From: Vulcanisaeta souniana JCM 11219 | Lineage (GTDB): Archaea; Thermoproteota; Thermoprotei; Thermoproteales; Thermocladiaceae | NCBI RefSeq assembly: GCF_026000775.1 | Contig: NZ_AP026830.1 | Location: 1,697,056 to 1,761,055 of the forward strand | Length of the DNA: 64,000 nt | Direction of reading: 5' to 3' | Shown: positions 20,245-24,923 of the stretch, piece by piece | Layout: every line of letters begins with the position of its first letter | How positions within the stretch are numbered: the stretch's first letter is position 1 | Translations under genes and position numbers: made by a program | The notes under the pieces: generated by a model | The model's database searches: none | What the model saw: the letters and a program-made list of their open reading frames with translations, nothing else | Told to the model about the DNA's origin: nothing

Positions 20245-20268
20245 GCATATAATTTGATTAAGATAAAT

Positions 20269-21432
20269 ATGCCAGACCCCCTCCTAACCGAAGAGCACCA
20301 GCTCATTAGGGGAAGCGTTAGGGAGTTTGCTGAGAGGTACATAGTGCCAGTAGCCAGGAGGATGGACCTCGAGGATTATTATCCAAGGGACCTAATAAAG
20401 GACCTCGGTAAGCAGGGCTTCCTAACGCCATCAGCGCCCCCTGAGTATGGCGGGCCAGGTATTGACCTCAGGGGTAGTGCCGTAGTTGTCGAGGAATTAA
20501 GTCGGTACAGCCCAACCCTCGGTTTCATCACAGAAATCGTAAATGACAATATAGTATATGCACTGCTCAGATATGGCAACAATAGGCAGAGAGAGGAAAT
20601 ACTGCCAAAGGTTGCCAGTGGCGAGTGGGTTGCATCCTACGCCCTCACTGAGCCGTGTTGTGGTAGTGATGCAGCAGCCATTGAAACTAGGGCAGAGAAG
20701 AGGGGCGGCGAATGGATCATAAACGGTAGGAAGATTTGGATCACGCAGGGAGCCTATGCAGACATTTACCTACTTTTTGCCAGGACTGGTCCCAGGGAAG
20801 CTAGACACAGGGCAATAACAGCATTCCTTGTAAGGAGGAATGATTGCGTTGAGGTTAGTAGGTTGGAGATGATGGGTATGAGGGGCGCTGGTGAGGCTGA
20901 GATCAAGTTTAATGACTGCGTGGTTAGTGACGATGACGTGCTGGGTAATGTTAATGAGGGGTTCAGGATCGCGATGGTGACTCTGGACCTGGCGAGAATT
21001 GGTATTTCCGCTGTGGCCCTTGGGCTCTCCCAGGGCGTTCTTGATGAGGCTCTCGAGTGGGCAAAGACAAGGACTGCATTCGGTAAGCCCCTGATTGACT
21101 GGGAATGGATCCAGTTCCAGTTAGCTGATATCAAGGCTAGGCTGGAGATTGGTAGGACGGTGACGTATAAGGCGGCCTGGCTTTATGATAATAAGGACCC
21201 GTCATTCGTGCTCTACGCCTCAATAGCCAAGTTATATACCGCTCAAATGGCCGTTGATATTGCGAGGGACGGAGTTCAGATACTTGGTGGTTTCGGTTAT
21301 TCAAAGGAGAGTTTCTCGGAGAGGGCTTATAGGGATGCCAAGGTCCTAGAGATTGCTGAGGGAACTAACGAGATCCAGAAGATGGTAATTCACAAAATAC
21401 TAATGAGGGGGTTGCCAGAGGTAGAATTATGA
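20269..21432 (+). CDS. acyl-CoA dehydrogenase (first of tandem pair)
   Basis: A 387-residue flavoenzyme that oxidises acyl-CoA to enoyl-CoA in fatty-acid or branched-chain acid breakdown. The all-alpha N-terminal domain is followed by the FAD/substrate segment YALTEPCCGSDAAAIETRAE and KIWITQGAYADIYLLFARTG. The C-terminal domain has RTAFGKPL, the flavin-contacting QILGGFGYSKES and the YRDAKVLEIAEGTNEIQ end. The catalytic Glu is probably in EIAEGTNE. It overlaps the second copy by 4 bases (ATGA). Bases 20649-20831 are identical to a block in that copy. Confidence 0.92.
   Translation: MPDPLLTEEHQLIRGSVREFAERYIVPVARRMDLEDYYPRDLIKDLGKQGFLTPSAPPEYGGPGIDLRGSAVVVEELSRYSPTLGFITEIVNDNIVYALLRYGNNRQREEILPKVASGEWVASYALTEPCCGSDAAAIETRAEKRGGEWIINGRKIWITQGAYADIYLLFARTGPREARHRAITAFLVRRNDCVEVSRLEMMGMRGAGEAEIKFNDCVVSDDDVLGNVNEGFRIAMVTLDLARIGISAVALGLSQGVLDEALEWAKTRTAFGKPLIDWEWIQFQLADIKARLEIGRTVTYKAAWLYDNKDPSFVLYASIAKLYTAQMAVDIARDGVQILGGFGYSKESFSERAYRDAKVLEIAEGTNEIQKMVIHKILMRGLPEVEL
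20649..20831 (+). repeat. 183-bp perfect direct repeat, copy 1
   Basis: By eye this block matches 21818-22000 base for base, with mismatches immediately on both sides (CTCACTGAG against CTCAGTGAG on the left; TTGTAAGG against TTGTGAGA on the right). It covers the FAD/substrate-binding region of the two acyl-CoA dehydrogenase genes and keeps the reading frame in both. Confidence 0.95.
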
Positions 21433-22589
21433 TCCCGGTAAAGCATACATTACTTACTAGGGAGCATGGAGAGTTCATGGATTTAGTGGATGAATTGAGT
21501 AGGAGGTATATTGAACCCGTGGCGGATAGGATAGATAGGGAGAACTACTACCCGCGTGAAGCCATTAGGGGACTTGGCGAGAACAGAGTATTATCGCCAG
21601 TCCTGCCCAGGGAGTATGGAGGGTACGGCATGGACATACTGGGCACGGCATTATCAATAGAGGTTATATCCAGGTACAGTGGTTCAATGGGTATACTGAC
21701 GGAGGTACAGGGTTTCCTTGTGACGGATGCCTTCTACACGTATGGTACCAAGGAAATGAGGGAGGGGCTCGTCCCTCGACTTGCTAGGGGTGAATTAATA
21801 GGTTCATTTGCGCTCAGTGAGCCGTGTTGTGGTAGTGATGCAGCAGCCATTGAAACTAGGGCAGAGAAGAGGGGCGGCGAATGGATCATAAACGGTAGGA
21901 AGATTTGGATCACGCAGGGAGCCTATGCAGACATTTACCTACTTTTTGCCAGGACTGGTCCCAGGGAAGCTAGACACAGGGCAATAACAGCATTCCTTGT
22001 GAGAAGGAGTAAGTGCATTGAGGTAAGCCCAATAAATGTCATGGGCATAAGGGGTACAGGCACCTCCGAGTTAACATTCAGCGATTGTGTTGTTGGTGAT
22101 GATGACATTGTAGGTAAACCCAATGAGGGTTTCAGGATAGCCATGGAAGCATTGAACCTGGGCAGAATTGCCGTAGCCTCAGTAACCCTGGGGCTTGCCG
22201 AGGCGGCGCTCATGGAAGCCATGGAGTGGATCAGGAATAGGAAAGCGTTTGACCAACCACTAAGTAACCTGGAGTGGATCCAGTTCCAGTTGGCTGACAT
22301 AATAACGTATATAGAGACCATGAGATCCATCGTATATGACGCAGCCTCACGCCTTGACCGTAGGTATGAGGATTACTATGCACATGCATCAATGGCTAAG
22401 TTGGCCTCCGTGCTCATAGGCATGGACGTAATCCGAAGAACCGTGCAGCTAACGGGGGCGTATGGTGTATGGAACGGCAGCAAACTGAACAGAATCTATA
22501 GGGATGCCAAGCTGATGGAGATTGGCGAAGGTACAAACGAGGTTCAGAGGATGGTCATTTATAGGTGGTTAAGTAAATACCTAGGTTAA
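21429..22589 (+). CDS. acyl-CoA dehydrogenase (second of tandem pair)
   Basis: A 386-residue paralogue of the preceding enzyme, translated from an ATG that overlaps its stop. It has the same domain order: FALSEPCCGSDAAAIETRAE, KIWITQGAYADIYLLFARTG, RKAFDQPL, LTGAYGVWNGSKLNR, MEIGEGTNEVQ. Outside the shared block the two proteins are clearly diverged, so they probably form a heteromer or have different chain-length or branch preferences. The C-terminus overlaps the convergent UDG gene by 9 bases. Confidence 0.92.
   Translation: MIPVKHTLLTREHGEFMDLVDELSRRYIEPVADRIDRENYYPREAIRGLGENRVLSPVLPREYGGYGMDILGTALSIEVISRYSGSMGILTEVQGFLVTDAFYTYGTKEMREGLVPRLARGELIGSFALSEPCCGSDAAAIETRAEKRGGEWIINGRKIWITQGAYADIYLLFARTGPREARHRAITAFLVRRSKCIEVSPINVMGIRGTGTSELTFSDCVVGDDDIVGKPNEGFRIAMEALNLGRIAVASVTLGLAEAALMEAMEWIRNRKAFDQPLSNLEWIQFQLADIITYIETMRSIVYDAASRLDRRYEDYYAHASMAKLASVLIGMDVIRRTVQLTGAYGVWNGSKLNRIYRDAKLMEIGEGTNEVQRMVIYRWLSKYLG
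21818..22000 (+). repeat. 183-bp perfect direct repeat, copy 2
   Basis: Second copy of the block at 20649-20831, in the second acyl-CoA dehydrogenase gene. The copies start 1169 bases apart in the same orientation, consistent with gene conversion between tandem paralogues. Confidence 0.95.
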
Positions 22590-23296: not shown

Positions 23297-23755
23297 ATGG
23301 ATCAATTAACCAAGGACATAGTCAGGGGAGTATTATCGTACATTTACGGACCTGGCATACTAAAGAAATTAAGTGGTGAGTTTAGGATTGAGGTTAGTAA
23401 AACGGGTGGTTTAAGGAGGATTTACCTGGGCGATAGGCTTGTATTCACGATTAGGGCTAGTGATGGTCGTCCATTACCGACATTGGAGGGTGCGCGGTTG
23501 ATTGATAAGGTGGTTGTTGTGAGTAGGGATGCCGCCCCATTTGTGAAGCAGGGTAGGAGCGTCATGGCTAAGTTCGTTGTTGATATCAGGAATGCTGTCC
23601 CCGGTGATGAGGTTGCCATTTACTCTGAGGATGGTGAATTGCTGGGTGTTGGTAGGCTGATGCTCTCTAGGGATGAGGCACGGAGTGTTGGTAGGGGCGT
23701 TGCCGTTAAGTTGCGGCATCACGTTAAGGGTGATGCTGAGAGAAGCAACCAATAA
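23297..23755 (+). CDS. PUA-domain RNA-binding protein
   Basis: A 152-residue protein. The N-terminal half has SYIYGPGI and KTGGLRRIYLGDRLVFTIRA, and the C-terminal half (VVVVSRDAAPFVKQGRSVMA KF, PGDEVAIYSEDGELLGVGRL) is a PUA domain as in the end of archaeosine tRNA-guanine transglycosylases. It could be the stand-alone PUA part of a split TGT or a related tRNA-binding protein. No catalytic domain is present. It overlaps the TrpRS reading frame by about 23 bases, so the two are co-transcribed. Confidence 0.8.
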   Translation: MDQLTKDIVRGVLSYIYGPGILKKLSGEFRIEVSKTGGLRRIYLGDRLVFTIRASDGRPLPTLEGARLIDKVVVVSRDAAPFVKQGRSVMAKFVVDIRNAVPGDEVAIYSEDGELLGVGRLMLSRDEARSVGRGVAVKLRHHVKGDAERSNQ

Positions 23756-24923
23756 TGCTTATATTTACTCAATTCTTCAGGGATGCGGTGGTTACTATCT
23801 GGCGAACGAATATTCAGTAACGCCCTGGGAGGTTAAGGGTAAAGTAGACTATATGAGGCTTGCCCGTGAATTCGGTGTTCAATTGATAACAGAGAATGAA
23901 ATAAACACAATACGGGAATTAACTGGCGAAGTTCATTACCTAATAAGGAGGGGCTTCTTCTACGCTCATAGGGACTTGGTACCAATACTAAGTAGGCAAA
24001 GGAGTGGGTTGAAATGGGCCTTGTATGACGGCAGGGGACCCAGCGCTGACCTGCATATAGGCCACCTAGTTCCCTGGATGCTCAGTAAGTGGTTTGTGGA
24101 TAAGTTCAATGTTGATTACTTCTTTGAGTTGACGGATGATGAGAAATTCCTGGTCAAGGAGGGGTACACCCTTGAGCAGACGAATAAGTATGCCTATGAA
24201 AACGCCCTGGACCTAATAGCCCTCGGTTTCACACCAGATAAGCTACACATAATTATTGATAGTGAGGACATCAAGTACCTATACAAGATAGCAGTTAGGG
24301 TGGGTAAGAAACTAACGTTATCAACCGTGAAGCACACCTTTGGGTTCACGGACTCAACGAACGTTGGCGCAGCCTTCTTCCCAACGCTGGAGATATCCGT
24401 GGCATTCCTACCCACTGAGCTTTATGGTGAGCAGGTACCTGTGTTAATACCAACAGCCATTGATCAGGACCCGTACTTCAGGCTCGCTAGGGATATAGCC
24501 GATGAGTTGGGTTACCCCAAGCCATCCACAATATACAGCAAGTTCATACCTGGACTAACGGGTGAGGATAAGATGAGTGCCTCAAACCCGGACTCGGCCA
24601 TTTACGTGACGGATAGCGAGAGGGACGTTAGGAGGAAGATAATGAATGCCCTAACTGGTGGTCAGCCAACTGTGGAGCTTCAGCGTAAGTACGGTGGTGA
24701 CCCAGACAACTGCGTTGTCTATAAGTACCATCTATTGTTCCAGGACAGTGATGAGAAGGTTAGGGATATTTACGAGAACTGCAGGGCAGGGAAGTTGTTA
24801 TGTGGTGAGTGTAAGATTATGCTTTTCGAGAGGATCAGGGAGTTTATGAAGGAGCATAATGAGAGGAGGGAGAGGGCGAAGGATGCAATACAACAATACA
24901 GGATCTCGGTTAAGTTCCGGTAA
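23733..24923 (+). CDS. trpS: tryptophanyl-tRNA synthetase, archaeal/eukaryotic type
   Basis: A class I synthetase charging tRNA-Trp. It has VTPWEVKGKVDY at the N-terminus, the HIGH motif as DLHIGHLVPW, PTAIDQDPYFRLARDIA, and the KMSKS motif as EDKMSASNPDSAI. A C-terminal Cys set (NCRAGKLLCGECK) is typical of the archaeal type. The start is unclear: conserved sequence begins near VTPWEVKG (23819), but no ATG, GTG or TTG lies between it and ATG 23733, which falls inside the PUA gene. I use 23733 (396 residues). A TATA-like TTATATTTA near 23759 would suit a later, non-standard start. Confidence 0.9.
   Translation: MLREATNNAYIYSILQGCGGYYLANEYSVTPWEVKGKVDYMRLAREFGVQLITENEINTIRELTGEVHYLIRRGFFYAHRDLVPILSRQRSGLKWALYDGRGPSADLHIGHLVPWMLSKWFVDKFNVDYFFELTDDEKFLVKEGYTLEQTNKYAYENALDLIALGFTPDKLHIIIDSEDIKYLYKIAVRVGKKLTLSTVKHTFGFTDSTNVGAAFFPTLEISVAFLPTELYGEQVPVLIPTAIDQDPYFRLARDIADELGYPKPSTIYSKFIPGLTGEDKMSASNPDSAIYVTDSERDVRRKIMNALTGGQPTVELQRKYGGDPDNCVVYKYHLLFQDSDEKVRDIYENCRAGKLLCGECKIMLFERIREFMKEHNERRERAKDAIQQYRISVKFR

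Follow-up and report, generated by a model that had tools for sequence, protein, structure and literature searches.

The question raised by this locus is how two strongly diverged genes lying in tandem come to share a block of 183 bp without a single difference. The window analyzed here, a stretch of 64,000 nucleotides, sits in the complete 2,432,148-bp genome of Vulcanisaeta souniana IC-059T, whose assembly is an Illumina and Nanopore hybrid with a long-read N50 of 5.7 kb (PMC9872577). Our answer, to which we give a probability of about 0.9, is that two old tandem genes have undergone recurrent short-patch ectopic gene conversion, of which the block is the latest visible trace. The genes, called A and B here, overlap by ATGA, and their positions, with that of the middle domain of A, are as follows.

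20269..21432, + strand: gene A, an acyl-CoA dehydrogenase, with three Pfam domains, PDB relatives, the catalytic glutamate and a GGFGY motif
21429..22589, + strand: gene B, a paralogous acyl-CoA dehydrogenase with the same domains and GAYGV in place of GGxGY
20638..20919, + strand: Pfam Acyl-CoA_dh_M, the middle beta-domain of gene A, residues 123-216 counted from 20272

The ATG at 20269 was assumed as the start of gene A; the open reading frame list begins at the TTG at 20254. A question of start sites also arises farther along the window, where a tryptophanyl-tRNA synthetase-like open reading frame (23673-24923, taken from its first ATG) overlaps the preceding frame at 23297-23755 by 83 bp, and its true start is probably further downstream than that ATG.

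Both A and B have the N-terminal, middle and C-terminal acyl-CoA dehydrogenase domains, well above the Pfam cut-offs, and strong PDB relatives were found for both. Outside the middle domain the proteins are 43-44% identical and the DNA is 50-54% identical. The catalytic glutamate, its position assigned by homology, is kept by both in an EGT motif (IAEGTNE in A, IGEGTNE in B). The QxxGGxGY motif of the FAD site reads QILGGFGY in A and is altered to QLTGAYGV in B. GAYG(V/L) replaces GGxGY near residue 340 of B in all eleven Vulcanisaeta species compared, and GGxGY is retained by A and by the paralogues of a second family, described below. From this motif, B may bind FAD differently or may require a partner.

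The two copies of the block are located as follows.

20649..20831, + strand: donor copy of the identical block, in gene A; 183/183 identical, with A-type residues like those of the A genes of relatives
21818..22000, + strand: recipient copy of the identical block, in gene B; 183/183 identical, with five A-type residues

The copies lie at an offset of 1169, share the reading frame of their respective genes, and form a maximal match, neither end of which can be extended by even one base. Third-position identity between A and B is 1.00 within the block and mostly 0.15-0.55 outside it, so that two observations of the preliminary description, identity that includes silent positions and strong divergence of the remainder of the paralogues, hold. 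That both flanks diverge at once holds only in part. At the same offset, identity does fall to 0.50 on the left (20272-20648) and 0.56 on the right, but the left flank is not at background from its first base, since 20641-20647 also match between A and B, and identity across the whole of 20612-20858 is 91%. Even at the 78% background identity that the domain shows between species, the chance of 183 consecutive identical bases is about 2e-20, and when variable third positions were permuted the run was significant at P<=5e-5, the lowest value that the test could return. The block is the only repeat of at least 40 bp in the 64-kb window, and a search of the whole V. souniana genome revealed no third copy.

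The next match to the block in that genome, 95 bp at 74% identity, is in another acyl-CoA dehydrogenase gene (L107:5970-7109, corresponding to G000:C1:1795975-1797108, outside the window), a more distant member of the family (about 35-40% identical). This third paralogue was tested as a common donor, with no clear within-species excess.

The AlphaFold strands of A span residues 121-218, and the block makes up the opening portion of the middle beta-domain. Its description as coding for the flavin- and substrate-facing region fits by homology.

We searched the genus in 12 genomes, one per species and including that of the window (V. souniana, G000), and found the A/B pair or part of it in 12/12. 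The neighbors and the gene order are the same in the relatives. This shared synteny shows the pair to be older than the species, and it excludes a new duplication as the source of the identity. Both genes could be compared in eleven genomes, with frameshifted drafts projected on the reference by alignment. Two of the genomes, G001 and G010, are metagenome assemblies, and the G001 contig ends inside the conversion interval. Both A and B are frameshifted in several drafts (L097, L098, L100 and L104); these frameshifts are most likely draft sequencing errors rather than marks of pseudogenes.

Identical A-B runs of at least 24 bp within one genome are listed below in coordinates of A, after the interval that contains them.

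20641..20977, + strand: A-B tract interval in A, residues 124-236 of the middle beta-domain, holding all runs of at least 24 bp
21810..22146, + strand: matching interval in B, offset 1169 from A
G000: 20649-20831 (183 bp)
G001: 20641-20720 (80 bp); the contig ends slightly beyond, inside the interval
G002: 20650-20720 (71 bp) and 20908-20977 (70 bp)
G003: 20923-20977 (55 bp)
G004: 20641-20726 (86 bp), 20785-20828 (44 bp) and 20908-20937 (30 bp)
G005: 20680-20705 (26 bp) and 20911-20977 (67 bp)
G006: 20671-20723 (53 bp)
G008: 20794-20828 (35 bp) and 20907-20930 (24 bp)
G009: no run of at least 24 bp
G010: 20641-20977 (337 bp)
G011: 20650-20750 (101 bp) and 20944-20976 (33 bp)

Nine of the eleven comparable species thus have A=B tracts of 53-337 bp, and the other two (G008 and G009) have 35 bp or less. 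Every run of at least 24 bp, in ten species, falls inside the one 337-bp interval, with end points that vary by species. Between the A of one species and the B of another, the longest run has a median of 20 bp and a maximum of 54 bp, so the shortest tracts (53-55 bp) are not longer than the longest between-species run. In the permutation test on third positions, P was at most 5e-5 in eight species, 3e-4 in G006 and 0.011 in G008; the test for conversion fragments was not significant in G009.

The preliminary description treated the block as the trace of a single recent event and missed this recurrence: conversion has taken place many times at this one location, running either way and across the genus. 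In a re-pairing test, the A gene of each species was compared with shuffled B genes of the genus. True pairs showed an excess of identity at 20632-20841 (z=5.9, 5.0 and 3.6; top P=5e-5), which weakened toward 21021; of the flank windows, a single one was marginal (21052-21141, P=0.04) and the others showed no excess. The flanks thus serve, within the very same genes, as a control for composition and codon usage. In trees, each flank separates A from B at 100/100. In the tree of 20641-20750, A groups with B by species in several species, and the AU test rejects an A clade (p=6e-6). When the 337-bp piece is analyzed as a whole, the tree mostly gives the A/B split, because the tracts span just part of the interval in most species, and the grouping by species appears in sub-intervals only. 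Within the converted segment, paralogues of one species are more alike than orthologues, the pattern that defines concerted evolution.

The direction of copying could be read from 20 positions in the domain that are diagnostic for A or B. Residues 157, 159, 165, 172 and 174 of V. souniana B are R, I, A, L and A. All five are A-type; the corresponding residues of most B orthologues are K, M, L (or V/I), V and T. The comparison with orthologues that had been proposed as a way of finding donor and recipient therefore gives a definite answer: the block passed from A, as donor, into B, and the proposal of recent gene conversion is both supported and polarized. In G001, the nearest relative, B is B-type at the first two of these positions, and the other three lie in the contig gap. 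Since G001 carries its own version of the segment, the V. souniana event (or the latest renewal of it) postdates the separation of the two species. Other species record copying of their own. Between the sister species G002 and G003, the interval 20650-20720 matches at 70/71 sites in the A genes and at 59/69 in the B genes, and A and B of G002 match at 71/71; in G002, then, A overwrote 71 bp of B after the split from G003. At 20789-20827, the A genes of the two species agree at 33/39 sites and the B genes at 38/39, with 37/39 between A and B of G003, which hints at B-to-A copying in G003. In G010 the copying went from B to A, with B residues over 337 bp of its A gene, and we give this example less weight because it comes from a metagenome assembly and its tract ends lie at short segments shared by other species.

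Other accounts of the identity have to be weighed against recurrent conversion. A repeat this long can lead short-read assembly astray, so that segments which really differ are merged or mis-joined; the break of the G001 contig within the interval, the metagenomic origin of G010 and the coincidence of its tract ends with segments shared by other species, which are possible mis-join sites, all lend this some color. The V. souniana genome is nevertheless complete, and by the published method its long reads, with an N50 exceeding the 2.3-kb length of the pair, make assembly collapse unlikely (PMC9872577). A pattern of the same kind also appears in independent genomes of other species (two are complete single contigs), where the sequences and end points differ and identities can be intermediate, and we regard an artefact as highly improbable. 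Selection at the level of DNA or RNA, through codon choice, RNA structure or a binding site, could in principle keep A and B identical without copying, and the segment is indeed the most conserved part of both proteins. Strong codon-level selection was also what the preliminary description would have read from relatives with the same A-B identity, and relatives do share A=B identity at the same place. The silent bases decide the matter: they differ from species to species yet are common to A and B of each species, changing jointly in the two genes and not being shared by orthologues. At 20641-20720, for example, the A genes of the sisters G000 and G001 differ at 13 of 80 sites, and 12 of these 13 differ likewise between the B genes. 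Selection for one particular DNA sequence is thereby excluded, and refuted as a sole cause, in favor of repeated conversion; codon usage is ruled out by the flanks, and we can scarcely credit that this class of explanation accounts for the identity.

Two further readings accept the copying and make it adaptive. One holds that A and B form a mixed tetramer, such that selection for matching beta-domains favors converted alleles. The genes are translationally coupled, with the ATGA overlap conserved in 8/8 relatives inspected, and the FAD-side motif of B is degenerate (GAYG for GGFG), as though B relied on a partner; on these sequence features a mixed A/B tetramer would be allowed, and alpha2beta2 acyl-CoA dehydrogenases from adjacent genes do exist (PMC8399759). 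However, the catalytic glutamate is present in A and B alike, which sets them apart from the known alpha2beta2 enzymes, and a weaker signal is seen at the same interval in unlinked paralogues of another family. Background identity also peaks at the same place. Selection for matching is therefore not needed, and we consider it an unlikely driver of the homogenization. The other reading, raised in the preliminary description, is that the V. souniana event was adaptive in its own right and gave B the substrate or cofactor specificity of A. Five B-type residues near flavin-facing strands did turn A-type, but the substitutions are mostly conservative, with no link to substrate choice, and the segment has been exchanged repeatedly and in both directions within the genus, as would be expected of a largely interchangeable domain. 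A reset of specificity is thus very doubtful.

If recurrent conversion is accepted, the restriction to this interval calls for a mechanism. With within-species pairs excluded, A-B DNA identity is 0.75-0.78 across most of the interval, with a dip to about 0.65 around 20812-20946, and is 0.46-0.68 elsewhere in the genes. MutS was not found in the four genomes tested, all of which have the NucS family. We suggest that strand invasion would begin where A and B are most alike, at the start of the beta-domain, which protein constraint may hold at about 78% DNA and 88% amino-acid identity between species. Localized mismatch processing, in cells without MutS, might then fix short patches, and copying would halt in the helical domains, where divergence has brought identity down to roughly 50-60%. 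By restoring identity, each event would make the next one likelier. The enzymes of the recombination steps, and any link of the process to NucS or to the absence of MutS, are inferred. Short-patch conversion has been shown in Sulfolobus acidocaldarius (reviewed in PMC4471258). The two-way exchange suggests a beta-domain interchangeable enough to tolerate it, and suggests that the unconverted helical domains would carry the enzymatic differences between A and B.

A similar but weaker signal is present outside the genus. In a second family of the same order, which we take to be Thermoproteaceae and against which the middle domain is again the best conserved, eleven genomes have two paralogues of this lineage, at distances that range from about 6 kb to more than 600 kb. 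When these eleven pairs were tested by pairing, with the count limited to codons for identical amino acids, identity within genomes was in excess at codons 121-150 (20632-20721; z=5.3, P=0.0002, the lowest value possible in this test) and at codons 201-230 (P=0.0008); the excess was weak or absent elsewhere. One genome (G036) has 60 identical bases at 20632-20691, and another (G035), with its paralogues about 450 kb apart, matches at 84/85 sites at 20644-20728. This family probably also takes part in recurrent conversion. Seven of the 11 pairs have no run above 27 bp, so these data favor, but do not prove, a wider hotspot that is independent of tandem linkage. We raise only tentatively, as a possibility with the odds somewhat against it, that the start of the beta-domain is a standing, order-wide and bidirectional conversion hotspot for tandem and unlinked paralogues alike, a natural domain-swap in which the genes would share one evolving cofactor domain as their helical domains diverge.

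Long-lasting concerted evolution of protein genes is rare among prokaryotes: 26 genes with recurrent concerted evolution have been catalogued, seven of them archaeal and all of those from Euryarchaeota, and acyl-CoA dehydrogenase is absent from the list (PMC6053082). Among the papers listed by our literature search, none was a relevant report of gene conversion in acyl-CoA dehydrogenases or of concerted evolution in Crenarchaeota. Like the catalogued genes, the A/B paralogues are nearer to each other than to orthologues, in five or more species and with synteny kept (PMC6053082); unlike them, the effect spans about a quarter of the gene, so that screens treating each gene as a unit would probably overlook it. 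A tree built from paralogues of this kind can be a mosaic. The two-gene arrangement, with one product bearing a degenerate cofactor motif, resembles the adjacent acyl-CoA dehydrogenase genes of ChsE4/ChsE5 and Scd1AB (alpha2beta2), although in those enzymes the catalytic glutamate is found in one subunit only and in the A/B pair it is found in both (PMC8399759). The short, discontinuous tracts recall those described for S. acidocaldarius, likewise a hyperthermophilic archaeon without MutS/MutL; as reviewed, its tracts arose between alleles after transformation or mating, whereas those of A and B are deduced between paralogues of natural species (PMC4471258). The pair is a natural record of such short-patch recombination in hyperthermophiles that lack MutS.

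The closest parallel is that of mtrA-1 and mtrA-2 in methanogens, where long-lasting gene conversion is limited to one domain (PMC4632066). In both cases old, adjacent archaeal operon paralogues have one domain homogenized within each species and the rest different, synteny rules out new duplications, and permutation and tree tests concur. In mtrA, however, the other domains are not homologous, identity in the homogenized domain averages about 92-99.7%, and the copying described runs from mtrA-1 to mtrA-2; in the A/B pair the whole genes are homologous, the tracts are short and patchy, both directions are seen, and the hosts are Thermoproteota rather than methanogens. The A/B pair joins these known examples of concerted evolution from a phylum and a gene family not listed among them (PMC6053082, PMC4632066). 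It adds a case from Thermoproteota that is resolved below the level of the gene, in short tracts of two directions and varied end points, some polarized between sister species, and it gives an indication of which acyl-CoA dehydrogenase domain can be exchanged and which bears the specialization.
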